In this document: piece after piece, positions 17,893-62,708 of the stretch
Numbering within the stretch: the stretch's first letter is position 1
How the letters are laid out: each line of letters opens with the position of its first letter
Assembly: GCF_011769525.1 (NCBI RefSeq)
Contig: NZ_CP050440.1
Location: forward strand, 5,581,501-5,645,500
Length of the DNA: 64,000 nt
Reading direction: 5' to 3'
Origin: Tolypothrix sp. PCC 7910
GTDB lineage: Bacteria; Cyanobacteriota; Cyanobacteriia; Cyanobacteriales; Nostocaceae
Notes under the pieces: model-generated
What the model was told of the DNA's origin: nothing
The model's database searches: none
Seen by the model: only the letters and a program-made list of their open reading frames with translations
Position numbers and translations under genes: made by a program

Positions 17893-20637
17893 ATGACAAA
17901 GTACCAGTATCAAGTCGGGGGTAGTTTGCCCCAAGATGCGCCAACTTATGTCAGACGACAAGCTGACGATGACATCTATGCAGGCTTGACTCAGGGTGAA
18001 TTTTGTTACGTCCTCAATTCGCGGCAGATGGGGAAATCTAGCTTGCGGGTGCAGGTGATGCAGCGCTTACAGGCGGAGGGGTTTGCCTGTGCCAATATTG
18101 ATATTACTGCGATCGGGACGGCAGATATTACCCCAGAACAGTGGTATGCGGGGGTGATTGATACCCTGGTGGGGAGTTTGAATCTTTATACTAGTTTTGA
18201 TTTAGATACTTGGTGGACTGAGAATGGTTTGCTTTCTCCGGTGCAGCGTTTGAGTAAGTTTATTGAAACGGTTTTACTCAAAACAATTACCGAAAAGATT
18301 GTGATTTTTATTGACGAAATTGACAGCATTCTCAGTCTTTCGTTCAATTTAGATGACTTTTTTGCAGTGATTCGCGATTGTTATAACCGCAGAGCCACCC
18401 ATGCAGATTATAATCGCCTGACTTTTGCTTTGATTGGGGTGTCTACCCCCTCAGACCTAATTCAAGATAAACGTCGCACTCCTTTTAATATAGGACGGGC
18501 AATTGATTTAACCGGGTTTCAACTCCATGAGGCGGAACCTTTGGCGCGGGGGTTGGCGGCGGTGGGGGATTCTGGGGAATTGATGCGGGTGGTGTTGGCG
18601 TGGACGGGGGGACAGCCGTTTTTAACGCAGAAGGTTTGTAAGTTGGTGATTGGGGAGTGGGGATTGGGGACTGGGGACTGGGGATTGGGGATTGGGGGAG
18701 GGGGAGAAGAATCTAAAATCCAAAATCTAAAATCTGAAATTGAGTTGTGGGTGGAGGATTTGGTGAGGCGGCGGATTATTGAGAATTGGGAGGCGCAGGA
18801 TGAGCCGGAGCATTTGAAGACGATTCGCGACAGGATTATGGCGAGGGGGGAAGAGAGGACTGGGCGATTGTTGGCGTTGTGTCAGCAGATTTCGCAGCAG
18901 GGAGAGATTGCGGCTGATGATAGTGCTGAACAAACTGAGTTGCGGTTGACGGGATTGGTGGTGAAGCGGGAAGGGAAGCTGCGAATTTATAACCGGATTT
19001 ACGCTGAGGTGTTTAAGCAGGAATGGAGTGAAAAGCTTTTGGCAAAGCTGCGCTCCTATTCTGATGCTTTTAATGCTTGGGTGGAGTCGCAACAACAAGA
19101 TGAGTCGCGGTTGTTGCGGGGAAAGACTTTGCAGGATGCTCAAGAATGGGCGAGGGGTAAAAGTTTAAGCGATTTGGATTATCGGTTTTTGGCTGCTAGT
19201 CAGGAATTAGAAAAGCGCGATGTGCAAAGGCGCTTGGAGGCGGAAGAACAGGCGAAGCAAGTTTTGGCTGAGGCGAACCGCAAAGCTAATCGGCGGATTC
19301 AAGTTGGTTCTGTGGTGCTGGGTTTGGCGGTGGTGGGGGCTGTTGTATCGTTAATGTTGGCTCAATATCAATTAGGGCAAGCACGATTAGCTAGGACGGA
19401 AACGAATCAGGCGCAAACAGAGTTAAAACAAGCGAAGCAAGAAACAGAAGTAACTAAGCAAGATAATCAACGGATATTAACAGAGAATCAAAAAATATCC
19501 AGCGACAATAAAAAGATATCGGCACAAGCAGAACAGGCAAAACGGAATCTGAATAATGCTGAACTAAACCTGAAAACTGCAAATGCTAAGGTGAATGATG
19601 CACAGCAAAACGTGAGAGTAGCGGAAAGCAAAGTCAAAGCAGCTAACGCCCAAGTTAGTCAAGCTGAAGTACAGGCAAAGGAAGCAGTTCAACAACGACA
19701 AGTAGCACAACAGCAGCGTGAAGAAGCTGTTGCAGGTTTAAATCGGGCTAGGGAAGAACAAAAGCTGGCGCAACAAGAATTACAAACAGCTAAAACTGCT
19801 CTGAATGCAGCTGTTAATGCCCGTGCAAAGGCTGATGAAGAGCGAAAAATTGCTTTAAAGGCTACCCAATTAGAACAAGATGGAACAAATGCTTTGCGAG
19901 TGTTTACATCTTCAAGAGAAATAGAGGGGTTACTGTTAGCAGTGCAGACTGGAGAACAACTAAAAACTCTAGTAAAGGATCAAAAATCTTTAGCAGATTA
20001 TCCTGCTTATAGCCCTTTGTTTAGTTTACAAACCATTTTGTTAAATATTCGGGAGCAAAATCGTTTGGAAGGGCATAGCAATTCGGTCATCAGCGTCATC
20101 TTCAGCCCAGATGGCAAAACTTTAGCTTCCGCCAGTGATGACGGAACCATCAAATTGTGGAATCGGGACACAGGCAAAAAAATTTCCACTCTGATTGGGC
20201 ATAGTAATGCAGTCAACAGCGTTGTCTTCAGTCCCGATGGCAAAACTTTAGCTTCCGCCAGTCGTGACAACACCATCAAATTGTGGAATCGAGACACAGG
20301 CAAAGAAATTTCCACTCTGACTGGACATACCTCTTGGGTCTTCAACGTCGTCTTCAGCCCGGATGGTAAAACTTTAGCTTCCGCTAGTGATGACAAGACC
20401 ATCAAATTGTGGAATCGAGACACAGGCAAAGAAATTTCTACCCTGACTGGCCATAGCGATGGGGTCAACAGCGTCGTCTTCAGCCCCGATGGCAAAACTT
20501 TAGCTTCCGCCAGTGTTGACAACACCATCAAATTGTGGAATCTGAGTCTTGATGATTTATTAGCCCAGGGTTGCAGTTGGCTGAAGGTTTATTTTATTAC
20601 CCATCCTGATGAGGCGAAGGTGTGTAAGGGGAGGTAG
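17893..20637 (+). CDS. AAA-like (AAA_35) ATPase with transmembrane, coiled-coil and WD40 repeats
   Basis: 914 aa. Residues about 5-400 are an AAA_35 ATPase: start YQYQVGGSLPQDAPTYVRRQ, Walker A-like LNSRQMGKSSLRV (about 42-54), Walker B-like IVIFIDEIDSI, and HLKTIRDRIM in the helical end. A transmembrane helix (about 469-491, VGSVVLGLAVVGAVVSLML) follows. A long coiled coil (about 495-665) is rich in Gln/Ala/Glu/Lys. Four near-identical 42-residue WD40 repeats (about 727-890; VFSPDGKTLASAS...TIKLWN) complete the protein. This is a STAND-type sensor: WD40 blades detect a ligand, the membrane segment anchors, and the ATPase switches. Residues about 253-284 (GEWGLGTGDWGLGIGGGG plus SKIQNLKSEIE) are encoded by STRR arrays. 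The gene probably acts with the preceding CHAT/AAA protein. Confidence 0.9.
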   Translation: MTKYQYQVGGSLPQDAPTYVRRQADDDIYAGLTQGEFCYVLNSRQMGKSSLRVQVMQRLQAEGFACANIDITAIGTADITPEQWYAGVIDTLVGSLNLYTSFDLDTWWTENGLLSPVQRLSKFIETVLLKTITEKIVIFIDEIDSILSLSFNLDDFFAVIRDCYNRRATHADYNRLTFALIGVSTPSDLIQDKRRTPFNIGRAIDLTGFQLHEAEPLARGLAAVGDSGELMRVVLAWTGGQPFLTQKVCKLVIGEWGLGTGDWGLGIGGGGEESKIQNLKSEIELWVEDLVRRRIIENWEAQDEPEHLKTIRDRIMARGEERTGRLLALCQQISQQGEIAADDSAEQTELRLTGLVVKREGKLRIYNRIYAEVFKQEWSEKLLAKLRSYSDAFNAWVESQQQDESRLLRGKTLQDAQEWARGKSLSDLDYRFLAASQELEKRDVQRRLEAEEQAKQVLAEANRKANRRIQVGSVVLGLAVVGAVVSLMLAQYQLGQARLARTETNQAQTELKQAKQETEVTKQDNQRILTENQKISSDNKKISAQAEQAKRNLNNAELNLKTANAKVNDAQQNVRVAESKVKAANAQVSQAEVQAKEAVQQRQVAQQQREEAVAGLNRAREEQKLAQQELQTAKTALNAAVNARAKADEERKIALKATQLEQDGTNALRVFTSSREIEGLLLAVQTGEQLKTLVKDQKSLADYPAYSPLFSLQTILLNIREQNRLEGHSNSVISVIFSPDGKTLASASDDGTIKLWNRDTGKKISTLIGHSNAVNSVVFSPDGKTLASASRDNTIKLWNRDTGKEISTLTGHTSWVFNVVFSPDGKTLASASDDKTIKLWNRDTGKEISTLTGHSDGVNSVVFSPDGKTLASASVDNTIKLWNLSLDDLLAQGCSWLKVYFITHPDEAKVCKGR
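18651..18740 (+). repeat. STRR arrays inside the AAA-WD40 coding sequence
   Basis: GGGGATT/GGGGACT heptamers (about 18655-18705) are followed by AATCTAA/AATCCAA heptamers (about 18710-18740). Both families are normally intergenic in this window. The reading frame stays open. Confidence 0.85.
20071..20562 (+). repeat. 126-bp tandem repeats encoding WD40 blades
   Basis: Units start at 20071, 20197, 20323 and 20449 (the last truncated). Each encodes 42 residues and they are nearly identical at the DNA level, indicating recent duplication or gene conversion. Confidence 0.9.
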
Positions 20638-23108: not shown

Positions 23109-24986
23109 ATGCTGCAAAAATTTTTACCACTTTTAGTAATTGGGCTGTGGGGAACTATAGTCTTGCCTTTGTCAGGACGGGCAAATGCAACTACCCCTCT
23201 AACCAGAGCTGAGATTCAGGAATTACGTAACTTAGTGCAGCTAATTCCCAGAAATGGGCCCAAGAGGCGACCAGCACGCAAAGCAGATGCAATGACACCT
23301 GGAGATGGTTTATCCACTGGTAGAAAGTCCCTTGCAGATTTACGCTTTAACGATGGTTCTTTAGCACGGGTTGGAGAACAAGCAATATTTCAGTTTTTAC
23401 CCAAAACTCGTAACTTTCGACTTACAAATGGGACTGTATTGTTGCTGATTCCACCTGGTAGGGGACAAACACGTATACAAACACCAAATGCAGCAGCAGC
23501 AATTCGGGGTTCAGCATTATTTGTCCGCTATGACGAACAAACCGATACTACAATTGTCGGCGCTCTTACAAATAGTGGTATAGAAGTCTCTAATAAAGCT
23601 TCTCAAAGTCAGGTGCTCGAAGCAGGGCAACTGATGGTTATTGTTAAAGGTAGATTTCAGGGTTTATACGATTTTGATCTCAGAAATTTTTATGAAACTA
23701 GCGATTTAGTGCGAGGACTTGATTTAACTAGACAAAATCTTGCACCAACACCAGATCCTGCGATCGCTAGTGTTCAAGCTGAAACCGCAGCCGCCGTAGC
23801 TACACAAACTCCACTTAAAGGTGAGGGAGTTGTCGAAAATCCTTCATTTTTACAACTAACAGCTAGTTCAGCAAGTTCTACCACCGAAGATAGTAAAAGC
23901 CAAACTAGTAACGCAACTAATAGCGAAACTAATAAAGAAGAGTCTTCATTAAACACGACCCAAGAAGCTCTGCCATTAGAATCCATTGTGGACACAGGAC
24001 AAGCCCAATCAGATGAGCAGCTAAGTAATAATAGTAATTCTGTTGAAACTACTCAAACTTCCACAAAACCACAAATCCCTTCATCAAAGCCTAGTGAGCC
24101 AGTAACACAGCCCAAGCCAGATAACCAACCGGGACAACCCAAACCCAATCCTCAGCCTGAGCCACCTAAGCCAGATAACCAACCGGGACAACCCAAGCCT
24201 AATCCTCAGCCTGAGCCGCCTAAGCCAGATAACCAACCGGGGCCCAAGCCTAATCCTCAGCCTGAGCCACCTAAGCCAGATAACCAACCGGGACAACCCA
24301 AACCCAATCCTCAGCCTGAGCCGCCTAAGCCAGATAACCAACCGGGGCCCAAGCCTAATCCTCAACCTGAGCCACCTAAGCCAGATAACCAACCGGAACA
24401 ACCCAAACCCAATCCTCAGCCTGAGCCGCCTAAGCCAGATAACCAACCGGGACAACCCAAACCCAATCCTCAGCCTGAGCCGCCTAAGCCAGATAACCAA
24501 CCGGGGCCCAAGCCTAATCCTCAACCTGAGCCACCTAAGCCAGATAACCAACCGGAACAACCCAAACCCAATCCTCAGCCTGAGCCGCCTAAGCCAGATA
24601 ACCAACCGGGGCCCAAGCCTAATCCTCAGCCTGAGCCGCCTAAGCCAGATAACCAACCGGGACAACCCAAACCCAATCCTCAGCCTGAGCCGCCTAAGCC
24701 AGATAACCAACCGGGGCCCAAGCCTAATCCTCAACCTGAGCCACCTAAGCCAGATAACCAACCGGAACAACCCAAACCCAATCCTCAGCCTGAGCCGCCT
24801 AAGCCAGATAACCAACCAGAACAACCCAAACCCAATCCTCAGCCTGAGCCGCCTAAGCCAGATAACCAACCAGAACAACCCAAACCCAATCCTCAGCCTG
24901 AGCCGCCTAAGCCGGATGTTGACCCACCCAAACCGGATGTTGACCCACCCAAGCCTGAGCAACCTCCAGAAAGACCAACAACCTAA
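23109..24986 (+). CDS. FecR-domain secreted protein with Pro-rich repeat tail
   Basis: 625 aa. A signal peptide (about 1-28, LPLLVIGLWGTIVLPLSGRANA) leads into a FecR-like beta domain, about 55-200. Its recognisable parts are SLADLRFNDGSLARVGEQAIFQF, NGTVLLLIPPGRGQTRIQTPNAAAAIRGSALFV and ALTNSGIEVSN. A Ser/Thr-rich spacer (about 235-330) follows. The tail is about 15 repeats of 17-18 residues (core NPQPEPPKPDNQPG), ending PKPDVDPPKPEQPPERPTT. FecR domains sense or bind in the periplasm, and cyanobacterial copies lack the sigma-regulator partner. The stiff proline tail could span the peptidoglycan, as in TonB. There is no C-terminal anchor. The antisense frame across the repeat is open only because the repeat is periodic. 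Confidence 0.85.
   Translation: MLQKFLPLLVIGLWGTIVLPLSGRANATTPLTRAEIQELRNLVQLIPRNGPKRRPARKADAMTPGDGLSTGRKSLADLRFNDGSLARVGEQAIFQFLPKTRNFRLTNGTVLLLIPPGRGQTRIQTPNAAAAIRGSALFVRYDEQTDTTIVGALTNSGIEVSNKASQSQVLEAGQLMVIVKGRFQGLYDFDLRNFYETSDLVRGLDLTRQNLAPTPDPAIASVQAETAAAVATQTPLKGEGVVENPSFLQLTASSASSTTEDSKSQTSNATNSETNKEESSLNTTQEALPLESIVDTGQAQSDEQLSNNSNSVETTQTSTKPQIPSSKPSEPVTQPKPDNQPGQPKPNPQPEPPKPDNQPGQPKPNPQPEPPKPDNQPGPKPNPQPEPPKPDNQPGQPKPNPQPEPPKPDNQPGPKPNPQPEPPKPDNQPEQPKPNPQPEPPKPDNQPGQPKPNPQPEPPKPDNQPGPKPNPQPEPPKPDNQPEQPKPNPQPEPPKPDNQPGPKPNPQPEPPKPDNQPGQPKPNPQPEPPKPDNQPGPKPNPQPEPPKPDNQPEQPKPNPQPEPPKPDNQPEQPKPNPQPEPPKPDNQPEQPKPNPQPEPPKPDVDPPKPDVDPPKPEQPPERPTT
24112..24911 (+). repeat. 51/54-bp tandem repeats in the FecR gene
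   Basis: About 15 units coding PKPNPQPEPPKPDNQPG, with or without a leading Gln. Two unit lengths alternate in places, giving a higher-order period of 105 bp. DNA identity between units is very high. Confidence 0.9.
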
Positions 24987-52992: not shown

Positions 52993-53895
52993 ATGATGCT
53001 TCGTCGTTGGATATTATCTACTTTAGCAATTTTACTAAGTATCTTTTTGTTTGCTTGTAATTCTGCAAATATTCAGCAGCCATCGGATAAATCAACTGCT
53101 AACTCTAATTCTCAAGCTTTAGCAAAAGTATCAGCAAAAAGAGTTGTGGCGCTATCTTCGCTATCTGCTGATATTATTTATCAACTCGATAAAACTAAAT
53201 TAGTAGGTATTACTGGTAGCAAATTATTTAAAAATGACCCTAATTTTGCTAATATTCCTCGCGTGAGTGAAGGGCAAACTCCCCCTAATTTGGAAAAAAT
53301 TATTGCCTTACAGCCAGATTTAGTAATTGGTGCAGAAGGCTTTTCTAATCAGCCAATTGAAAAACTCAAGCAATTGGGAATTTCTACTATTCTCACCCAA
53401 GTTAATAGTTGGGAATCTCTAGAAAAATTGACACAAAAACTTGCTGAGTTAATTGATGTAGATCCTCAGCCTTTATTAAATCGCTACACAAGCTTTTTAG
53501 CAGATAAAGCAACTCATAACCCTTCTACTTTAGTGCTTGTTAGCCGTCAACCAATTTTAGCTCCGAATAAAAATAGTTGGGCTGGAGATTTACTCACTAA
53601 ATTTGATGCCAAAAACTTAGTTGCAGACTTTCAGGGTAAAAGTCCCATTGGTGGGTATGTGACGCTTTCGGCTGAGAAAGTTTTGGAAGCAAATCCAGAT
53701 GTTTTAATTGTCGTAAATAGTACAGATCCTCAGCTTTTAGATTCTTTGAAAAAAGAAGCTTTTTGGCAGCAATTACAAGCAACTAAAAATAATCGAGTTT
53801 ATAGTTTTGATTATTATGGTTTGGTGAATCCTGGCAGTATAGATGCAATTCAAAAGGCTTGCCAGAAACTCACACAAGTTTTATCTTCATCATAA
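52993..53895 (+). CDS. Siderophore/heme/cobalamin-type binding lipoprotein
   Basis: 300 aa. Lipoprotein signal WILSTLAILLSIFLFACNS (lipobox-like LFAC, Cys about 22). The mature domain is a PF01497-type metal-chelate binding fold: KRVVALSSLSADIIYQLDKTKLVGITG, PRVSEGQTPPNLEKIIALQPDLVIGAEGFSNQPIEKLKQLGISTI, VLEANPDVLIVVNSTDPQ, NNRVYSFDYYGLVNPGSIDAIQKACQKL. It binds ferric-siderophore, heme or vitamin B12 for an ABC importer; the ligand cannot be chosen from sequence. No permease lies beside it. Convergent with the FTR1 gene, which supports an iron role. Two adjacent ATGs at 52993 and 52996 are both usable. Confidence 0.88.
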   Translation: MMLRRWILSTLAILLSIFLFACNSANIQQPSDKSTANSNSQALAKVSAKRVVALSSLSADIIYQLDKTKLVGITGSKLFKNDPNFANIPRVSEGQTPPNLEKIIALQPDLVIGAEGFSNQPIEKLKQLGISTILTQVNSWESLEKLTQKLAELIDVDPQPLLNRYTSFLADKATHNPSTLVLVSRQPILAPNKNSWAGDLLTKFDAKNLVADFQGKSPIGGYVTLSAEKVLEANPDVLIVVNSTDPQLLDSLKKEAFWQQLQATKNNRVYSFDYYGLVNPGSIDAIQKACQKLTQVLSSS

Positions 53896-53905
53896 AATTT
53901 TTGAT

Positions 53906-53932
53906 GGTGCGTTACGCTGAAGCTAACGCACC
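53906..53932. terminator. REP-like hairpin between convergent genes
   Basis: GGTGCGTTA (53906-53914) pairs with TAACGCACC (53924-53932), with GCT/AGC extending the stem. It begins 10 nt after the binding-protein stop and may serve both strands. Same family as 17664-17695. Confidence 0.6.
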
Positions 53933-53957
53933 CTACTTTTGGTTATTGTACAGATGG

Positions 53958-54905
53958 TTATTGTACAGAGCGCAAATTCTTTGTATCTTGAGCAGAAGAA
54001 TTACCTGTAATACTGCGGAAGTAAAGACCGCCAACTGTCAGTAAAAATGTCAAATAGCCTACTGCTTGTACGAGATAGAGATTGTCTCTGTAGCCAAATA
54101 AGGACTTGAGAATGATGCCGGGGAATTGTTCATCGGGCAAGATTTTAGAAGTATTTAAAACCATCGGCCCTAAAATACAAGAGTGAATTTTAGTAAAGCG
54201 TTCGTAGTAAAAACAAAGGCTTTCTGTTGCGCGGCTGCTGAGTGCTAAATTAGCAATACCATCGTCAAAATGTTTCAATGCAGAAACTACTAATCCAGCA
54301 ACTATCAAAACTAATAAAACGCCCATAACTTGGAAAAATTGGCGAATATTAATTTTGACACCCCATTTAAACAAGAGTACGCCAATCACTACTGCTGAGA
54401 ATAAACCACCAATGGCACCCAACGCAGGCATAAATCCTTGTTGAAAATTAGCGGCAATAAATAAAACAGTTTCAAAACCTTCGCGAATTACTGCAATTAA
54501 AATTAATGTAAAAACACCCCAACCTGCATTCGAGTTTTGTGTTAGTGCTTCGGTAACAGCACCCTCAACTGTAGCTTTCATAAATCTGGCTTGCTTCGTC
54601 ATCCAGATTAACATCCAACTGAGCATGACTATTGCCAAAACACTAAAAGTGCCTTCCATTATTGGCTCAACTACCGAAGTATATTGAGGATTAATTGCGC
54701 CTAAGATTTGAATTAACCAAGTAAAAATTACACCTATAAGCGCGCTTAAAAGAACACCAACACCAACACCCGCATATACCCAAGAATTGAGTCGAGATTG
54801 TTTGGCTTTTTTCAGCAAAGCCAGCACAATTCCCACTACGAGAGCAGCTTCTACTCCTTCTCTGAGCGTAATTACAAAAGTAGGTAAGGCAGTACTAAAA
54901 TTCAT
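53958..54905 (-). CDS. FTR1-family iron permease
   Basis: 315 aa from the ATG at 54903-54905. A longer frame back to 54956 is encoded by an STRR array and is rejected. Seven transmembrane helices. Two iron-handling motifs are visible: TLREGVEAALVVGIV (REGxE) in helix 1 and AVIREGFETVLFIAANFQQG in helix 4. In the Ftr1/EfeU family these glutamates relay Fe3+ through the membrane. Partners supply ferric iron by oxidation: a ferroxidase (Fet3-like) or EfeO/EfeB. Here a multicopper oxidase and an EfeO-like protein lie upstream in the same orientation. A 160-residue loop near the C-terminus (SLCFYYERFTKIHSCILGPM) is unusual and carries two Cys. Confidence 0.93.
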   Translation of the reverse strand: MNFSTALPTFVITLREGVEAALVVGIVLALLKKAKQSRLNSWVYAGVGVGVLLSALIGVIFTWLIQILGAINPQYTSVVEPIMEGTFSVLAIVMLSWMLIWMTKQARFMKATVEGAVTEALTQNSNAGWGVFTLILIAVIREGFETVLFIAANFQQGFMPALGAIGGLFSAVVIGVLLFKWGVKINIRQFFQVMGVLLVLIVAGLVVSALKHFDDGIANLALSSRATESLCFYYERFTKIHSCILGPMVLNTSKILPDEQFPGIILKSLFGYRDNLYLVQAVGYLTFLLTVGGLYFRSITGNSSAQDTKNLRSVQ

Positions 54906-54907
54906 TG

Positions 54908-54990
54908 TTTGTCCTTTGTCCTTCGTCCTTCGTCCTTCGTCATTAGTCTTTAGCAATAACTAGTGACTAATGACTAATGACTAACGACAA
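54908..54990. repeat. STRR array
   Basis: TCCTTCG/TCATTAG heptamers and AATGACT heptamers between the FTR1 and ferritin-like genes. Confidence 0.8.
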
Positions 54991-55425
54991 TTAACTGAAA
55001 TCACGTAACATTTTCTTCAATTCAAGATTATGCATCTCTTCTTGACCAATCATGCCACGGGCAAACTCTTCTAAATAAATGCTGGCATTTGTGACAGTAT
55101 CTAAAAGAGCCTTATATAAATCTAGCGCTTTCTTTTCGTGGGATAAGCTTTCTGCCAAGATATCTTTGACTGAATGCTTGTAGGTTTCTTCCATTGGGGC
55201 GATTTTCAAGGAAGGATGTCCATCTAAACCCGTCAGAATTTCTCCTACTTGTTGAGCATGAAGTAACGATTCACTAGCTTGTGCTTTGAAAAAAGCCACG
55301 ATTGGTAAGCGATTAGGGCCAGTTACCATCAGGGAATAATGTGTATAACGCACTACTCCTGCTAGTTCAAATTCCATGATGGCATTGAGTAGATCAATGG
55401 TCTTTTTTTGGTCAAGTTCTTGCAT
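54991..55425 (-). CDS. Ferritin-like / bacterioferritin-type protein
   Basis: 144 aa, all helical, no signal. Four-helix bundle with ligand-type residues: ELAGVVRYTHYSLMVTG (Glu, His), QASESLLHAQQVGEIL (E-x-x-x-x-x-H), LSHEKKALDLYKALL and FARGMIGQEEMHNLELKKML (E-E-x-x-H). The spacing fits a diiron centre of bacterioferritin or the DUF305-like ferritin group. It would oxidise and store iron in the cytoplasm after entry through FTR1. It starts 85 nt upstream of the permease ATG. A heme ligand Met as in Bfr cannot be fixed by eye. Confidence 0.88.
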   Translation of the reverse strand: MQELDQKKTIDLLNAIMEFELAGVVRYTHYSLMVTGPNRLPIVAFFKAQASESLLHAQQVGEILTGLDGHPSLKIAPMEETYKHSVKDILAESLSHEKKALDLYKALLDTVTNASIYLEEFARGMIGQEEMHNLELKKMLRDFS

Positions 55426-55599
55426 CAGTTGTTAATTTCAGCAAAGGTTACGAATGTAGAGTAATGAGAAATAAGTTAGAAGTTATACTTTTTTGAAGTG
55501 TTAAAAGTTGAAACGAGCTTCACTTTTAACTTCTAAATATTTCCTCACTATTCACTCATTTTAAACTCGTCTATCTACATCTCTGATCCGGCAGAATTG

Positions 55600-56640
55600 C
55601 TATTGTTGTGCTTGGGTGCTAGTTTTGTCAATCACTATTTGCGAGTTTTGCTCAATGGTTTTGATTAGCTTGGTGACATCTTCAGGAGTTTTCACTGGGC
55701 TAGCTGGCGGGATGGCGGCAGGCCAAACTTTGACTAAATCAGCAAAACTTGCTTCTATTGCTTTATTAGCTTCAGGGCTGGTTTGGGCTACCTGGCTAGC
55801 AATGCTCTTATATAAGTCATTAGCGTAGACGACAAAGCCACGAGAATCTTGATATTCAATTGCTGCGGCTATTTTACCATTGGCGATCGCAGCTCCATAT
55901 TCTGAGTTGGCTGAATCTAATAAGCCGTTAATTACCTGGAGTACGAATCCTGGCTTGGAACGTTGCGCTTCTGGTAAAGTTGCGATCGCGCCATCTACGG
56001 CTTGTACAGAAGTGGTAAAATCTGTTTTCAGTTTGGGATTCTTGGGATTAGATTTGACTAAATCTTGCAAACTCACCAAAGTAGTCTTAAATTCTTTGAC
56101 CTTGCGTTCATTTAATTCCTCTTCGACATCAACATAAATTTCCTCAACTGGATGTCCAATATGAGGTTCAGCCTGTTTGGGTTGATTTTGATCCAAAAGT
56201 TCTTTTGCTACTAACAGATGTCCTTTCATTAACCCCAATTTGGTCATGTAATCAACATCTTTCGCCTCACCTGTGAGTACGACTTCTTGCACAGTTACCA
56301 TATCTTTGATTTGGTCAAACTGTTCTTGATTAATTACCTTCTTACTTACCAAATCCTCTGGAGTTGCGTAGGGACGGCTGGCTTGAATTTTGTTTGATAA
56401 CGCCGGAACCCCTAGCTTGGCTTCAAACTTATCTAACTCTGACAAGATAGCAGTGTTGATATTAATTTTTGCTTTGCTACCGTGATTGCTATGGCTTCCT
56501 GTTTCCGTAACTTGAGTGGTGGAGCTAGTTGCAACTGGTGCGGGTGCATTACTAGCAGTTGGCGTAGTATTATTACAAGAACTAAGAGAAACGATAGCAC
56601 AAGCAGAAATAGCCAAGCAGAGATAGCGTAATTTAATCAT
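55600..56640 (-). CDS. Lipoprotein with helix-hairpin-helix and EfeO-like helical domain
   Basis: 346 aa. Lipoprotein signal YLCLAISACAIVSLSSCNN (Cys about 22), then a Ser/Thr/Ala spacer. Residues about 58-110 are ComEA-like helix-hairpin-helix (KININTAILSELDKFEAKLG...ATPEDLVSKKVINQEQFDQI). From about 125 a helical bundle resembles EfeO/imelysin proteins and holds an H-x-x-E motif, HIGHPVEEIYVDVEEELNERK (His/Glu near 160), and DYMTKLGLMKGHLLVAKEL. EfeO partners of FTR1 bind Fe and Cu in the periplasm. Fusing it to a DNA-binding-type module is unusual; here it may act as a protein-protein adaptor. It is 174 nt before the ferritin-like gene. Confidence 0.82.
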   Translation of the reverse strand: MIKLRYLCLAISACAIVSLSSCNNTTPTASNAPAPVATSSTTQVTETGSHSNHGSKAKININTAILSELDKFEAKLGVPALSNKIQASRPYATPEDLVSKKVINQEQFDQIKDMVTVQEVVLTGEAKDVDYMTKLGLMKGHLLVAKELLDQNQPKQAEPHIGHPVEEIYVDVEEELNERKVKEFKTTLVSLQDLVKSNPKNPKLKTDFTTSVQAVDGAIATLPEAQRSKPGFVLQVINGLLDSANSEYGAAIANGKIAAAIEYQDSRGFVVYANDLYKSIASQVAQTSPEANKAIEASFADLVKVWPAAIPPASPVKTPEDVTKLIKTIEQNSQIVIDKTSTQAQQ

Positions 56641-56942
56641 TGTTGCTCCTACAAAGTTTTCCAGCCGATAATTTAATGACTTCCAGAGATTATCAAAATC
56701 TATTGATAGTATTTATCATTAGGTATTATTTTGATTTATCACAAATGCAATCCTTTATCAACTAATAGCCAAGATTGCGATTGTATCTTAATGATTTTTC
56801 CAGTTTTGATTGATAATTTTTCTAGCTAATGCAAGGTATTATGGGGTTTCCCAGGTAAAAGCCTGGGAATGCTAAAATTAAAACACAAGAAAATCTAATC
56901 AGACTCCGTATTAGCTATCATTCTTGATGCTGTATGGGGTCT
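56641..56942. other. Spacer with a hairpin
   Basis: 302 nt of AT-rich sequence. The stem TTCCCAGG (56848-56855) with CCTGGGAA (56862-56869) could end or weaken transcription between the oxidase part and the permease part of the cluster; no T-run follows on the minus strand. Confidence 0.5.
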
Positions 56943-57137
56943 TTACTTTACAGAATTATTGGCAATATGTCCGTCTAATTGCAAAGATTTGACGTGATAA
57001 CCGTGGAATTTTGGCTTTTGACTCACGCGTATCATTGCGATGGGATAAGTAGCAGCTAATAGGCTAAAAACCCCTACTAACATCCAGATATATTTGTGCA
57101 TTTCTCTGCTAGAAATCCGACTCTTTTCTATCTCCAT
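56943..57137 (-). CDS. Small single-pass membrane protein
   Basis: 64 aa. One helix (about 15-36, YIWMLVGVFSLLAATYPIAMI) with a basic N-terminus and a short soluble tail outside (VSQKPKFHGYHVKSLQLDGHIAN) that has several His residues. ATG start; 25 nt after the end of the next gene upstream. Not a family I know. The His-bearing tail could touch metal, as guessed from the neighbours. Confidence 0.7.
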   Translation of the reverse strand: MEIEKSRISSREMHKYIWMLVGVFSLLAATYPIAMIRVSQKPKFHGYHVKSLQLDGHIANNSVK

Positions 57138-57162
57138 AACTTAAAATTTCCTTGATTTTTGA

Positions 57163-57636
57163 TTAACTCAACGGTAGGTAGGGAAATAAGGGATGCCAAC
57201 TCATAGCAGTAGCTGCAATGATTAAAGTAGACATCCAAAAAAATATAGTTCTGGGTCTAATTTTTTTGTTATTCCATAACACAGAAAGAATAAACCAACT
57301 CACCAGCCAGGCAATTAACAACATTGTTTCTTTGCCTGTATAACTACCAATATTTCCCCATATTTTGCTGGGGTTATGGCTTCCTGGTATCCAACTACCA
57401 AGATTCCAAACCATATTTTCGATATCTTTCGAGGTATCAGATAAGTGATGAGTAACCATCATCGTAAAACATCCAATCCCCACACTTAAAAATGCTGCTG
57501 CTGCTGGCCCAAAAACAGATGGAGGATTATTTGAACCTGCGGCTAAAATTCCGGGAAAATTTTTTAATCTCTGCCAAATACGACTGTATAAAGGTGCAAA
57601 TTGTAATTCCTCACTACGATATTTTTGTCTACTCAT
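57163..57636 (-). CDS. Three-helix membrane protein, unknown family
   Basis: 157 aa. Soluble N-terminus (EELQFAPLYSRIWQRLKNFPG), then about three helices: FGPAAAAFLSVGIGCFTMMVTHHL, MLLIAWLVSWFILSVLW and TIFFWMSTLIIAATAMSW, with a loop IENMVWNLGSWIPGSHNPSK between the first two. His pairs (VTHHLSD, MSWHPLFPYLP) near helix ends could hold heme or metal. 48 nt after the preceding gene, so in the same operon. Confidence 0.75.
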   Translation of the reverse strand: MSRQKYRSEELQFAPLYSRIWQRLKNFPGILAAGSNNPPSVFGPAAAAFLSVGIGCFTMMVTHHLSDTSKDIENMVWNLGSWIPGSHNPSKIWGNIGSYTGKETMLLIAWLVSWFILSVLWNNKKIRPRTIFFWMSTLIIAATAMSWHPLFPYLPLS

Positions 57637-57684
57637 CTAAACATCCTTAACGTAAATCATTGATTGCAGTTTTGGTATTTGCTT

Positions 57685-58308
57685 TTATAAAGCATGGATT
57701 TTCGCAATACCAAGTCCTGTCACTAATCCACCCATAGAAAAAAACATCATCGCCATTAAAGCTACACAAGTAGCTGTTAGAATTGGACTATTTTGCTTTT
57801 CTAAAATAGAGTCACCATACTTCCACAAAACCCAAGTACAAGCTACTCCTAAGGGCAGAGTAAACAACACGCTAAATTCGTGATACTCCATTAATACGTA
57901 TTGAGTTAATGGCGAGTTTTCTTTGAGCCAAGCGCGCGCACCACCAAACTCTAAACCTGCACGATAACGCATATATGCTAGGTTACCTGTAGCGATCCCC
58001 AAAAAGGTAATTAGACTCGACCAAAAAGTTAAAGTACGCATTTGAGGCAGAATATTACTAACTCCTCGCAGTAAAGGGAATGCTAAATGTCCTGTGTAAA
58101 CAGCAACCACTGTTGCTAGTAATGCACCAAAACCATGAATTGTCCCCATCCATCTTTGCCAAGGACTAGGATGCAATAAATTCATGAATGGCAAAAACAA
58201 AAATATTCCCGCAGATAAAATGCTTAATCCATAAACAGCGACTTGTGCAATATCTAGCTGTCGTGGAAACTGCCTGGAACCAGAATCGACTTGTGAATCT
58301 AACACCAT
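57685..58308 (-). CDS. Multi-helix membrane protein (DUF4079-like)
   Basis: 207 aa from the ATG at 58306-58308; an upstream frame from 58377 lacks support. About five helices: VAVYGLSILSAGIFLFLPFM, MGTIHGFGALLATVVAVYTGHLAFPLL, LTFWSSLITFLGIATGNLAYM, FSVLFTLPLGVACTWVLWKYG, ILTATCVALMAMMFFSMGGLVTGLG. His residues in the helices (TIHGFGA, YTGHLAF, EYHEFSV) are spaced like heme ligands in b-type cytochrome-like proteins. This might be electron-accepting partner of the oxidase; inference only. It follows the oxidase gene by 82 nt. Confidence 0.75.
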   Translation of the reverse strand: MVLDSQVDSGSRQFPRQLDIAQVAVYGLSILSAGIFLFLPFMNLLHPSPWQRWMGTIHGFGALLATVVAVYTGHLAFPLLRGVSNILPQMRTLTFWSSLITFLGIATGNLAYMRYRAGLEFGGARAWLKENSPLTQYVLMEYHEFSVLFTLPLGVACTWVLWKYGDSILEKQNSPILTATCVALMAMMFFSMGGLVTGLGIAKIHAL

Positions 58309-58390
58309 AAACGACACCGAGTAATTCAAAAATAGCTGTTGACTATTAGTAGTCAACAGCAAACACAGTTGATGCAATCGTTAAAGATTG

Positions 58391-59380
58391 CTAGACCACT
58401 TCAAATACACCCATACAACCGTTTTCTGCGATCGCATCTTGATGGGGATGAAACATATATTTCCCTGGATAGCGAAATGCAAATTCCAAAATATGCCTTT
58501 CAGCTACACCCATCGTGATCACATCAGCTTTCTCACTAGGAGTCATCGTCATGCCAGTACGATAGACATCAAAGAAGTTGGCATGAAGATGAAATGTCAC
58601 GGCTGGATCGTATTCAATGATATTAAGGACATAGAGCCGAATTAACTGATCTTTGTAAATTCGGATGGGATTGTCCATGTAGTGGTGAGGCAAACCATTG
58701 AAAGCGTAATATTCATTACGGCTATCATCATTAATGTCATACCCAGCCATGACCAACACAATTTCATCGGCTGGCGGACGGGGTTTTGGCGGATCGATGA
58801 TAAACATCCCATATAACCCCTTAGCAATGTGACGGGTAACTGGCTCAATATGGCAGTGATATAAATGAACGCCGTAGGGTTCGGCATCAAATTCATAAAT
58901 TGTCGCACTTCCATTACTTACTGGGCGGATACCATCCATATCTGATGAATGAACCCCATGAAAGTGTAAAGAGTGGGAATGTCCTGCCTTATTGAGAAAT
59001 AATATCCGTACCCGTTCGCCTTGTTTGACGCGTAGTGTTGGCCCTGGTATGTGACCGTTTAAATCCCAGATGTTATAGGATACGGCACTATTAAGCTGAA
59101 TAACGGAAGTCCCAGCAGTTAACTGAAATTCTCGAATAGTACGTCCATTCTCTTGCTTTAATGTCCCATAATCGAAATTTCTTAGCATCTTCATGGGTTG
59201 GGTAACTCCCTCAGATGCCGCAATTTCCGGGGGTGGGACTTTGACGATGGACTTACTATTGACACTCGTTGCGTGCCAAAGTGCTGCTGCTCCCGCCATA
59301 CAAGTACCACCTAAACCCAGCTTTAGTAATTGACGACGACTCCAAAATTGTTCTTTTCCCAAAGCCAAGTTATTGGGCAT
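58391..59380 (-). CDS. Tat-exported multicopper oxidase
   Basis: 329 aa. Twin-arginine signal WSRRQLLKLGLGG (about 13-25) with a hydrophobic stretch. Two cupredoxin domains. Copper motifs: SLHFHGVHSSD (H-x-H), YGVHLYHCHIEPVTRHIAKGLYGM (H-C-H...H...M, type-1 Cys plus trinuclear His), VTFHLHANFF (H-x-H), and the last block YMFHPHQDAIAENGCMGVF, where the usual H-C-H has become H-P-H. So the second domain keeps the copper-cluster His residues but has no type-1 Cys. The length and domain count suit a two-domain laccase-type or nitrite-reductase-like oxidase. As first gene of the FTR1 cluster it may be a ferroxidase. Confidence 0.88.
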   Translation of the reverse strand: MPNNLALGKEQFWSRRQLLKLGLGGTCMAGAAALWHATSVNSKSIVKVPPPEIAASEGVTQPMKMLRNFDYGTLKQENGRTIREFQLTAGTSVIQLNSAVSYNIWDLNGHIPGPTLRVKQGERVRILFLNKAGHSHSLHFHGVHSSDMDGIRPVSNGSATIYEFDAEPYGVHLYHCHIEPVTRHIAKGLYGMFIIDPPKPRPPADEIVLVMAGYDINDDSRNEYYAFNGLPHHYMDNPIRIYKDQLIRLYVLNIIEYDPAVTFHLHANFFDVYRTGMTMTPSEKADVITMGVAERHILEFAFRYPGKYMFHPHQDAIAENGCMGVFEVV

Positions 59381-60306
59381 GACATTAAATAACGGTTAGC
59401 GCTAGAATGGGAAGTTGCAAAAGATTTGCAATTACTCTTGGTATATTAGAGTGATTAAGAATTATTGTCAATAAATTTGTAAATCTTTTCTCACCAAAAA
59501 TCCCCTCCACTTTTTTGTGGATGTCAACAATTTTTGACTTTCAGGTGTAGAGAAATAAGTGTTAGCAGAGAAGCAAGCTAAGGTGTGTAATTGCAGGAAA
59601 TTTAGTACTGCCCTAAAAATAACCCTTAGATGATATTAAATTTTATTAATGTAATTTAAATTATATTGAGAATTTTACAGCAGATTGCAAGTTGGTGAAG
59701 TACAGATAATTGTAAGGGCAACGCACAGCCTTGCCCCGAAGTCCATACCTCATTTACCTAAAATACGCTGTATTTTTAGTATTCTTTATAGTCTTTTAAC
59801 CCTGATTTACTCATAGAAAATTTGCTCTCAGGGTAATATTAAATACTTTTAAATGATCTATCTCCAAAAAAATCTCAGATTTACTGATGAGACAGAATTA
59901 AATATCACTAATTTGTCTCATACGGATCTTTGATATAAAGATAAATCTATTTTTAGCTCTAGCTTTTTCGCATAGATAAATATTAAATTAATTTGCGTCT
60001 AAACATAGATAAATATAAATATTCGTCAATTAGCTAAAAGCCTAAACTCTAGCCTTAGCACCTAGTAACATGATATTTTCACTAATTTTAGTATGTAATC
60101 TAAAAATAAAATTAATAAAAGTTGATATATTAAAAAATAAGTATATTATTTAACGCATATTGTATTGTCAATCTGTCGGAAGTATCAGGATAAAATCCCC
60201 CAAGAGGGCATTGTAAAAAGGGTAAGTTTTCTGCTTTTTATTAATTTAATGCCGCAATTACATTGAGTAATTTGTGTGAATCAAAACATCATACACGGGG
60301 CAAATC
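59381..60306. other. Intergenic region between the oxidase and cbiM
   Basis: 926 nt, AT-rich, no convincing ORF. A short CCCCC-AAGA-GGG hairpin lies near 60198-60210. I looked for a B12 box (GCCACTG-type) and saw none. The divergent promoters must be here. Confidence 0.45.
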
Positions 60307-61230
60307 ATGCATATTCCTGATGGATTTGTTTCTATGCCCGTAGCAGGGGCTACGGGTGTAGCGAGTGCGGCAGCACTCTTGATTGCATTGAGGCGATCGC
60401 AAGACGCTTTTGGGATTCGTCGCGCTCCAGTACTGGGTTTAACTACAGCGTTTATTTTCGCTGCCCAGATGATTAATTTCCCTGTAGCAGGGGGTACTAG
60501 TGGACATTTATTAGGAGGAACCTTAGCAGCAGTTATTTTAGGCAGTCCTTGGGCTGGAGCATTATGCATCGCGACGGTATTAATTATTCAAGCAGTGCTG
60601 TTTGCCGATGGAGGAATTACAGCCTTAGGTGCAAATATTTTGAATATGGCCTTTATTGGTGTTTGGGTTGGTTGGGGGTTAACTCAAACTTTGCAAAGAC
60701 TTTTAGGAGGGTCGAGACAGCGCTTACCCCTAGCAGCTGGAATTGCATCTGGTGTGAGCGTAGTAGTAGCAGCCATAGCTTGTGCCTTGGAGTTAGCTCT
60801 TTCTGGAACCGCACCGATAGCTATAGTTTTACCAGCCATGACTGGTACTCATATTCTAATTGGTATTGGTGAAGGGCTCATTACGGGTAGCGTGTTAGTT
60901 TACCTCGCTAGACAGAGACCAGATTTATTACCAGGGGAACAGCAGCAATTTCGCGGTTGGTCAATACCTGTTGTTACTATTTTTTTAGTAGCAGGTGTAC
61001 TATCGCTTTTTGCCTCAGCTTGGCCAGATGGCTTAGAAAGAGTTGCTGAGAACTTAGGCTTTATCAACTTAGCCCATAAAGTACGGGTAATTGTGCCCAC
61101 ACCTTTAGCTGATTACGGTATACAGGGATTAGGCACGATTGGCACCAGTATTGCTGGGCTGGTGGGAGCTGCTGTTTGCTTTGCTGTCGCCTTTGGCATA
61201 GCCAAGGTAGTGAGACCGAATAATGCTTAA
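60307..61230 (+). CDS. cbiM: ECF transporter S component for cobalt/nickel, CbiM-type with CbiN-like tail
   Basis: 307 aa. N-terminus MHIPDGFVSMPVAG is the metal-binding start of CbiM/NikM, where the amino group of Met1, His2 and later His ligands hold the metal. Six to seven helices, with TSGHLLGGTLAAVILGSPWAGALC and QAVLFADGGITALGANILNMAFIG being the family core. The last third (about 220-305) has two more helices and WPDGLERVAENLGF, the CbiN/NikN (PDGLE) motif, so M and N functions are fused. Cobalt or nickel cannot be decided by eye. It overlaps cbiQ by 8 nt. Confidence 0.94.
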   Translation: MHIPDGFVSMPVAGATGVASAAALLIALRRSQDAFGIRRAPVLGLTTAFIFAAQMINFPVAGGTSGHLLGGTLAAVILGSPWAGALCIATVLIIQAVLFADGGITALGANILNMAFIGVWVGWGLTQTLQRLLGGSRQRLPLAAGIASGVSVVVAAIACALELALSGTAPIAIVLPAMTGTHILIGIGEGLITGSVLVYLARQRPDLLPGEQQQFRGWSIPVVTIFLVAGVLSLFASAWPDGLERVAENLGFINLAHKVRVIVPTPLADYGIQGLGTIGTSIAGLVGAAVCFAVAFGIAKVVRPNNA

Positions 61231-61888
61231 CATCTCCCTACCATTACGTTTGCAACTGTCGCTGGTGATTGTCATCGGCGCAGCTTTATTAAAGCATCAT
61301 ACTTGGCCCTACTTGGCTGTTTATGGTGCGATCGCACTTTTGTGGGCCTGGTTGTTGCGCGTACATCTTCCCCATCTGGGAAAATTACTCGGTACGGAGT
61401 TGCTGTTTTTATCTTTACTAGCTTTGCCCTTAGGGTGGGAACGGGCTAGCTTTTTGCTGGTTCGTTCTGTGATCTGTTTAATTGTGATGAACAGTTTCTT
61501 GTTAACTTTACCTGCTCATAGTTTCGGCATTGCGCTGAAAAGCTTACCTTTACCATTACCGTTAAAGGAGAATTTGCTATTAGCTGGACAATATCTAGAA
61601 ATTTTATTGTCAGAAGTCACAAGAATGCAGCGCAGCGCCCAATTGCGGGGTCTTAATGGTTCTGCTGGCTGGCTGCGTTACGCTAGTGCAGCTATGATTG
61701 GAGCCTTATATCTCCGAAGTTTGGAACGGGCAGAACGAGTTTACACCGCAATGATCGCTCGTGGTTACAACGGTCAGTTACCAATAGACTCAGCATTAAG
61801 GCCAAAAGAGCGACTGGCTTTATTAGTAGCTTGTGCGATCGCTGCTTGTTTAACCATCAGTTCCTATCAGTTAGCAGTTAACAGTTAG
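61223..61888 (+). CDS. cbiQ: ECF transporter T component
   Basis: 221 aa. Transmembrane coupling protein of the cobalt/nickel importer. Several helices, then the cytoplasmic coupling helices with the two Ala-Arg-Gly type signatures, SAQLRGLNG (AQLRG-like) and MIARGYNGQLPID (ARG). These grip the ATPase. It begins inside cbiM (8-nt overlap), indicating translational coupling. Confidence 0.92.
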   Translation: MLNISLPLRLQLSLVIVIGAALLKHHTWPYLAVYGAIALLWAWLLRVHLPHLGKLLGTELLFLSLLALPLGWERASFLLVRSVICLIVMNSFLLTLPAHSFGIALKSLPLPLPLKENLLLAGQYLEILLSEVTRMQRSAQLRGLNGSAGWLRYASAAMIGALYLRSLERAERVYTAMIARGYNGQLPIDSALRPKERLALLVACAIAACLTISSYQLAVNS

Positions 61889-61943
61889 CAGTCAACATTC
61901 AACAGTCAGTAACAGCGCAGTTGTGAATTTTGAGTTGTGAATT

Positions 61944-62708
61944 TTGAAATCTTTAACATCTAATCCCCAATATCCCATCCATCATCCCCACCCTACTGTA
62001 GTGGAGGTGGAGAACTTGGTATATGCCTATCCCAATCAAGAGCCAGTATTGCGCGACATTTCTTTTACATTAAAAGCAGGCGATCGCGTGGCTTTGATGG
62101 GAGCAACAGGTTCGGGCAAAAGCACTTTGCTAGAGAATCTCATCGGCTTAAAACAACCGCAAAGTGGGAGAATTAGCATTAATGGCATTCCCGTAGAATA
62201 TAAAACTCTATCCCAAGTGCGTCGTCACATCGGCTTTGCTTTTCAAGATGCCAACGACCAATTGTTTATGCCCACCATCTTAGAAGATATTACCTTTGGG
62301 CCACGTAATTATGGTGTTTCACCAGCATTAGCAATTGATCGGGCGCGTCAGTTATTAGCTGATTTTGGCTTAGAAGCCTACGCCAACCGTTCGGCTCATC
62401 AACTTTCTGGGGGACAAAGACGCTTGGTTGCTCTCGCCGCGATTTTAGCTCTAGAACCTGCAATTTTGATTTTAGATGAGCCTACTAACGGTCTCGATCC
62501 TGCATGGCGGCGACATCTAGCACAAGTGTTATTAAAATTGCCAGTGCAGGTAATTTTAATCGCCTCCCATGACCTCAATTGGTTAGGTAAAGTGACTCAA
62601 CGCGCTTTGGTACTGGCTGGCGGGCAGATTCCCATAGACACAGACATTCAGCCACTTTTAAAAGATGGGCAGACCTTAGATCGGTTGGGTTTACCAGTAG
62701 ATTGGTAA
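61944..62708 (+). CDS. cbiO: ECF transporter ATP-binding protein
   Basis: 254 aa read from a TTG at 61944; a GTG at 62000 is a weaker alternative, and no strong ribosome site is visible. Walker A LMGATGSGKSTLLENLIGL (about 50-70), Q-loop GFAFQDANDQLFMPTI, ABC signature HQLSGGQRRLVALAAIL, Walker B AILILDEPTNGLDPAWR, H-loop IASHDLNWLGK. The FQDANDQLF block is typical of ECF ATPases. Lies 55 nt after cbiQ. The N-terminal 17 residues are Pro/His-rich and partly encoded by STRR-like CCCCAAT sequence. Confidence 0.93.
   Translation: MKSLTSNPQYPIHHPHPTVVEVENLVYAYPNQEPVLRDISFTLKAGDRVALMGATGSGKSTLLENLIGLKQPQSGRISINGIPVEYKTLSQVRRHIGFAFQDANDQLFMPTILEDITFGPRNYGVSPALAIDRARQLLADFGLEAYANRSAHQLSGGQRRLVALAAILALEPAILILDEPTNGLDPAWRRHLAQVLLKLPVQVILIASHDLNWLGKVTQRALVLAGGQIPIDTDIQPLLKDGQTLDRLGLPVDW

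Follow-up and report, generated by a model that had tools for sequence, protein, structure and literature searches.

In Tolypothrix sp. PCC 7910 (assembly GCF_011769525.1) we analysed a window of 64,000 nt (NZ_CP050440.1, positions 5,581,501-5,645,500; all positions below are those of the window). It contains an island of metal-linked genes. Three of them form the unit that recurs among cyanobacteria; they encode a multicopper oxidase (MCO), an FTR1 iron permease and HHHlp, a lipoprotein bearing a helix-hairpin-helix (HHH) domain. Judged from sequence, the island probably represents an oxidase-dependent iron uptake system that would work like the Fet3-Ftr1 pair of yeast while being built from other parts. 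An FTR1 permease is generally assumed to depend on an oxidising partner, which is rarely known outside yeast, and cyanobacteria have a very high iron demand. No description of an MCO-FTR1 link in cyanobacteria was found in the literature searched.

Conservation of the oxidase, the lipoprotein and the permease

Gene order was surveyed in 145 genomes of the class, accepting MCO matches up to E 1e-60. MCO is present in 49 genomes and intact HHHlp in 46, always accompanied by MCO; 96 genomes have neither. The three genomes with MCO only comprise one with the gene at a contig end and two with the ZIP-linked type described below, and HHHlp never occurs without MCO (Fisher p 1e-34, not corrected for ancestry). 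The original prediction, an earlier annotation of this DNA, had proposed to check gene-order conservation. Both genes indeed lie side by side in 41 of the 46 genomes, far beyond chance, and FTR1 adjoins HHHlp in 35. The order MCO-HHHlp-FTR1 recurs in many families with differing flanks, a ferritin gene being added in Nostocaceae. In two Nostocaceae genomes without MCO (G013, G039) only HHHlp fragments are left beside ferritin and FTR1, which looks like a joint loss of MCO and HHHlp. Near several MCO-HHHlp pairs without adjoining FTR1 there is a gene for either a porin of iron uptake (NF033921) or an Fe2+-dependent dioxygenase of PiuC/YbiX type (PRK05467).

The window FTR1 is the only one in its genome. 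It matches PF03239 with 186.5 bits (cut-off 25.3) and carries the motifs R32EGxE36 and R158EGxE162, which confirms its earlier assignment as an FTR1 permease; the REGxE motifs are conserved across 85 sequences. It stays below the cut-off of the EfeU equivalog NF041756 (191.6 vs 255 bits). In a quick tree of 86 FTR1s, built without bootstrap, 47 of the 48 HHHlp-linked permeases fall into one group of 51 rows (SH-aLRT 96), with 5 label changes compared to 28.5 in shuffles. Many genomes carry a further, stand-alone FTR1, which lies outside this group. The HHHlp-partnered FTR1s make up almost a single clade, separate from the stand-alone ones.

Components of the island and their control

The features are listed below; bit scores are Pfam matches above cut-off, and T1 stands for type-1 copper.

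58391..59380, minus strand: MCO, predicted Tat-exported (twin-arginine translocation) two-domain multicopper oxidase of type C, its T1 copper lying in domain 1; Cu-oxidase_2 (98.7 bits) and Cu-oxidase_3 (78.0 bits), 3gdc the nearest solved structure
57685..58308 (open reading frame to 58377), minus strand: TM230, helical membrane protein without a family match, heading a separate module of three genes
57163..57636, minus strand: TM157, second module gene, also for a membrane protein
56943..57137, minus strand: TM64, third gene of the module, short form of a membrane-anchored protein of 200-280 aa (cluster of 27 relatives)
55600..56640, minus strand: HHHlp, lipoprotein with an HHH domain; HHH_3 (30.7 bits), lipobox LSSC22
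54991..55425, minus strand: ferritin-like (Bfr-type) protein with 5/6 ferroxidase ligands; Ferritin PF00210 (68.6 bits)
53958..54905 (open reading frame to 54956, likely ATG at 54905), minus strand: FTR1, iron permease carrying the REGxE motif twice; PF03239
52993..53895, plus strand: convergent substrate-binding lipoprotein (SBP) of heme/B12/siderophore type; Peripla_BP_2 (94.5 bits)
59456..59470, minus strand: operator-like box of FUR-family type, TGACAATAATTCTTA, located 76-90 nt upstream of MCO and recurring in Nostocaceae
56704..56718, minus strand: operator-like box of FUR-family type, TGATAAATACTATCA, located 64-78 nt upstream of HHHlp, with 2 mismatches to the 7-1-7 consensus

The genes and coordinates given earlier hold, but the minus-strand genes number seven instead of five; TM64 (64 aa) was absent from that list. 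Because of the gene spacing, with a gap of ~300 bp in between, two transcription units are suggested, MCO-TM230-TM157-TM64 and HHHlp-ferritin-FTR1. The chelate-binding lipoprotein gene said to face the island is present in convergent orientation on the plus strand, but it is predicted not to be co-transcribed with the island. SBP is nearest to IsdE/BtuF-type binding proteins and stays under every equivalog cut-off.

MCO comprises two cupredoxin domains in 329 aa and thus does not show the three-domain architecture of Fet3. Its Tat motif SRRQLLK and the H-P-H of domain 2 are both legible directly, and the former, together with the Cu-oxidase_2/_3 matches, bears out the description as a Tat-exported multicopper oxidase. 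The nearest solved structure is 3gdc, a two-domain MCO of Arthrobacter FB24 (E 4e-86). Across 45 sequences the T1 ligands of domain 1 (H136, C176, H184) and all eight trinuclear-cluster histidines (H139, H141, H175, H177, H264, H266, H311, H313) are invariant; the axial position Met192 is variable. With a T1 Cys-His set in domain 1 only and H311-P-H313 in domain 2, MCO has the sequence features of type C, which is defined by a T1 copper in the N-terminal domain (PMC13151041). The cyanobacterial two-domain laccases found earlier were type C in 8/8 cases (PMC3192119). The original prediction had supposed that the missing Cys of domain 2 may alter the chemistry of the oxidase. The Cys is indeed absent, but relatives of known structure lack it as well, 3gdc and 7rab carrying H-A-H at this position. 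H-P-H is hence the normal type C state and not a lesion, since this type has its T1 copper in domain 1, as cyanobacterial two-domain laccases do.

Sister MCOs outside the cyanobacterial clade are directly followed by a ZIP-type transporter in 10/10 examined cases (Arthrobacter, Nocardia, Rhodococcus, Rubrobacter, Deinococcus, three Bacillaceae and two divergent cyanobacterial MCOs), with ZIP assigned by annotation or similarity in a small sample chosen from the top plasmid matches. In the MCO tree a single branch (SH-aLRT 100) divides the ZIP-linked from the HHHlp/FTR1 MCOs. Several of the MCO-ZIP loci (L198-L205, L147, L148) have a DtxR/MntR-like 'metal-dependent transcriptional regulator' alongside.

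HHHlp consists of the lipobox LSSC22, the HHH domain (56-115) and a conserved helical domain (~122-345); its structure model has a pLDDT of 86.5. Residues H141, H160, H163, E167, E247, Y248, E262 and D265 are invariant in the family alignment. The protein had been called EfeO-like, a designation that is not established. The window HHHlp has no Pfam M75 match (3/48 alignment members match, at E 0.0018 or weaker), and in place of the N-terminal cupredoxin (CUP) domain of EfeO it has the HHH domain. The GxHxxE motif is absent as well: the sequence reads IGHPVEE, with H163xxE166 kept and the Gly shifted by one. Profile comparison with cyanobacterial M75 proteins (hhalign) gave a probability of 28%. 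Structural likeness of the helical domain to EfeO/EfeM is weak too, Foldseek matching the model to EfeO with prob 0.75 but E 0.5, and the comparison with VIA (Z 7.6, rmsd 7.7 over 191) ranking below unrelated helical bundles. We therefore did not file HHHlp under EfeO/M75.

HHHlp (13 genomes) and M75 (17) co-occur in 0/59 genomes (p 0.012, uncorrected). In G096 (L159, 4879-9032) a linked-group FTR1 and its ferritin have no HHHlp nearby; they adjoin genes for an M75 (imelysin) lipoprotein and for a di-haem oxidoreductase (DHOR), which apparently stand in place of HHHlp and MCO. Given this locus and the lack of co-occurrence, HHHlp may do the same job as M75 proteins. The HHH domain tracks FTR1 linkage: 34/34 HHHlps with it are linked and 1/10 without it (G183), a pattern that rests on few independent events. 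We infer that contact with FTR1 is the role of this domain. Most HHH-less HHHlps carry a GGEGGE linker, as do 9/13 cyanobacterial M75 proteins; examples of this repeat linker are found among A4 and A5 members (e.g. L138, L212). A plasmid protein search with HHHlp gave one match, alphaproteobacterial and beside a di-haem CCP/cupredoxin gene.

The ferritin-like protein keeps E18, H56, E97, E129 and H132 invariantly. By alignment, the position of the bridging Glu51 is Ser in 30/30 sequences (Ser53 in the window), with an invariant Glu one place earlier, and Leu54 takes the Met52 position, so that neither the six ferroxidase ligands nor the heme Met of bacterioferritins are complete. The earlier call as ferritin-like stands with the PF00210 match; a canonical ferroxidase site is not supported, and iron storage is plausible.

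FUR-type boxes were counted with <=3 mismatches in regions upstream of genes and compared with shuffles. They precede MCO in 37% (shuffled 4%) and HHHlp in 56% (shuffled 7%) of cases. Sites near TGANAATNATTNTCA upstream of both genes are well above shuffles and above other genes; 250 other genes showed no comparable gain in mean mismatch, and no enrichment was seen upstream of FTR1 or SBP. The consensus of Anabaena FurA is AAATAAATTCTCAATAAAT (PMC4005646). As the 7-1-7 form is common to several FUR-family proteins, our claim is limited to putative FUR-family control of both units with the metal unspecified. Exact palindromes in the own genome numbered 5 compared to 7 for a reversed-pattern control, most of them inside unrelated genes; a regulon is not identifiable in this way.

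TM230-TM157-TM64 also turns up next to cbiM and ferritin-FTR1 where both MCO and HHHlp are missing. It is a module separate from the oxidase unit, with which the small membrane genes had been grouped. Its proteins have no Pfam match, and Foldseek with the TM230 model returned nothing under E 0.1. TM64 has a long form of ~200-280 aa in relatives. As no more than a guess, the conserved H58, H74 and H143 of TM230 (numbering of the shorter start) would suit a heme protein. The module (56943-58308; L065, L072, L162) is almost confined to cyanobacteria and often lies next to ferritin-FTR1 and divergent from cbiM. In Microcoleus-type genomes cbiM is preceded by TGATAATNATTATCA boxes that are perfect or nearly so. 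In the window a cbiM-cbiQ-cbiO-like cobalt/nickel energy-coupling factor importer (60307-62708) is divergent from MCO, a common neighbour in Nostocaceae. Further away, a 54-bp repeat array (24110-24917) encodes the Pro-rich PKPDNQPGQPKPNPQPEP tail of a secreted FecR-like protein, the opposite strand also being open there, and near-identical 126-bp WD40 repeats (20071-20542) close a 914-aa ATPase-WD40 protein.

Proposed mechanism and alternatives

In the proposed mechanism the Tat-exported type C MCO would oxidise Fe2+ with O2 outside the inner membrane. HHHlp would bind the product via its conserved His/Glu site and bring it to the permease by the HHH domain, and the dedicated FTR1 would move iron inward through its REGxE sites. 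In Nostocaceae the Bfr-like ferritin would take up the iron inside, and the two units, if FUR-regulated, would answer to metal supply. We infer Fe2+ as substrate, the hand-over, the direction of transport and the binding FUR protein. The original prediction had drawn the same chain from oxidase via lipoprotein and FTR1 to ferritin. Its oxidase-FTR1 coupling is upheld by conserved order, the FTR1 clade, the FUR-type boxes and the iron-related genes seen as alternative neighbours; the EfeO identity is not, and neither is a canonical ferritin site. As a conserved system the importer idea is well supported by comparison of genomes.

Several points weigh against it. The co-occurrence counts are not corrected for shared ancestry, two genomes have MCO-HHHlp but no FTR1 at all, and FTR1 is present in many cyanobacteria that lack such an MCO. 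The general 7-1-7 form describes the boxes better than the FurA consensus, whose enrichment is weaker, and Zur or PerR might be the regulator that uses them. Moreover, ZIP-type transporters usually carry divalent ions, and prior ferroxidation would therefore make little sense for the sister MCOs.

The main rivals are a cuprous oxidase and iron detoxification, the former foremost. MCO might oxidise Cu+ in copper handling, with its neighbours tying iron uptake to copper status. Sister MCOs are frequently located in plasmid stretches for metal resistance, near CopZ, CopC or P-type ATPases. MCO1-ZIP pairs of ammonia-oxidising archaea were proposed, as a hypothesis, for copper uptake, and a related two-domain MCO of Nitrososphaera viennensis, which has a ZIP-type permease next to it, shows mild induction when Cu is limiting (PMC7785015). 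In the cyanobacterial clade, however, what stays constant beside MCO is HHHlp and FTR1, joined by ferritin, porin or PiuC, and no recurrent copper gene was seen in the MCO neighbourhoods; we regard this role as unlikely. Improbable as well is a protective unit in which surplus Fe2+ is oxidised and stored away by MCO and ferritin, with FTR1 as recovery route. Ferroxidation reduces Fenton chemistry, and ferritin belongs to the Nostocaceae version, but inspection of the ferritin shows no export signal, its ferroxidase site is altered, and the FUR-type boxes suggest repression at plentiful metal. Descent alone without joint function could preserve the very stable order within Nostocaceae; the recurrence of the order in many families with different flanks, the co-occurrence and the FTR1 clade structure make it a rather remote explanation. 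A copper nitrite reductase or other nitrogen-oxide enzyme is hardly credible, as the similarity to NirK (TIGR02376, 76.8 bits) is far under the cut-off of 296.3 bits, all eight trinuclear-cluster histidines are kept and the nearest structures are MCOs.

Comparison with known systems

We return to oxidase-dependent iron uptake. The island is best called a variant of oxidase-coupled FTR1 uptake, itself a known kind; the variant is new. Tentatively, cyanobacteria may have built their own Fet3-Ftr1 analogue by tying a metal-oxidising two-domain MCO, whose sisters serve ZIP, to a dedicated FTR1 lineage and a new lipoprotein family (HHH plus a predicted metal-binding helical domain), MCO being the missing re-oxidase. 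If true, MCO could be the oxidase absent from current models of cyanobacterial FTR1 uptake. A conserved oxidase-lipoprotein-permease unit of three removable genes makes the question of the oxidising partner testable in cyanobacteria and ties copper to iron supply.

Yeast Fet3p-Ftr1p shares with the island a multicopper oxidase, an FTR1 permease and the proposed oxidation of Fe2+ before transport. The island MCO, in contrast to three-domain Fet3, has two domains, a Tat signal and T1 in domain 1, and a lipoprotein is added; the pairing likely arose separately. In EfeUOB and EfeUOB/M, too, a permease of the FTR1 family goes with an oxidoreductase and a helical partner outside the cytoplasm, whereas in the island MCO replaces the EfeB peroxidase and HHHlp lacks the CUP domain, GxHxxE and an M75 match. 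The oxidising partner of bacterial FtrC was described as unknown (PMC11966278). Synechocystis cFTR1 (slr0964) is an FTR1 iron permease too; the window FTR1 sits in the HHHlp-linked group. For cFTR1 a reduction/re-oxidation route was proposed (Xu 2016, as cited in PMC11221513 and PMC7676907), for which a review names oxygen, and no enzyme, as re-oxidant (PMC7676907). The type C MCO 3gdc is of the same enzyme class as the island MCO and also adjoins a metal permease, as does the oxidase of the archaeal MCO1-ZIP pairs. In both cases the oxidase is followed by a ZIP-type transporter, whereas the cyanobacterial clade has HHHlp and FTR1.

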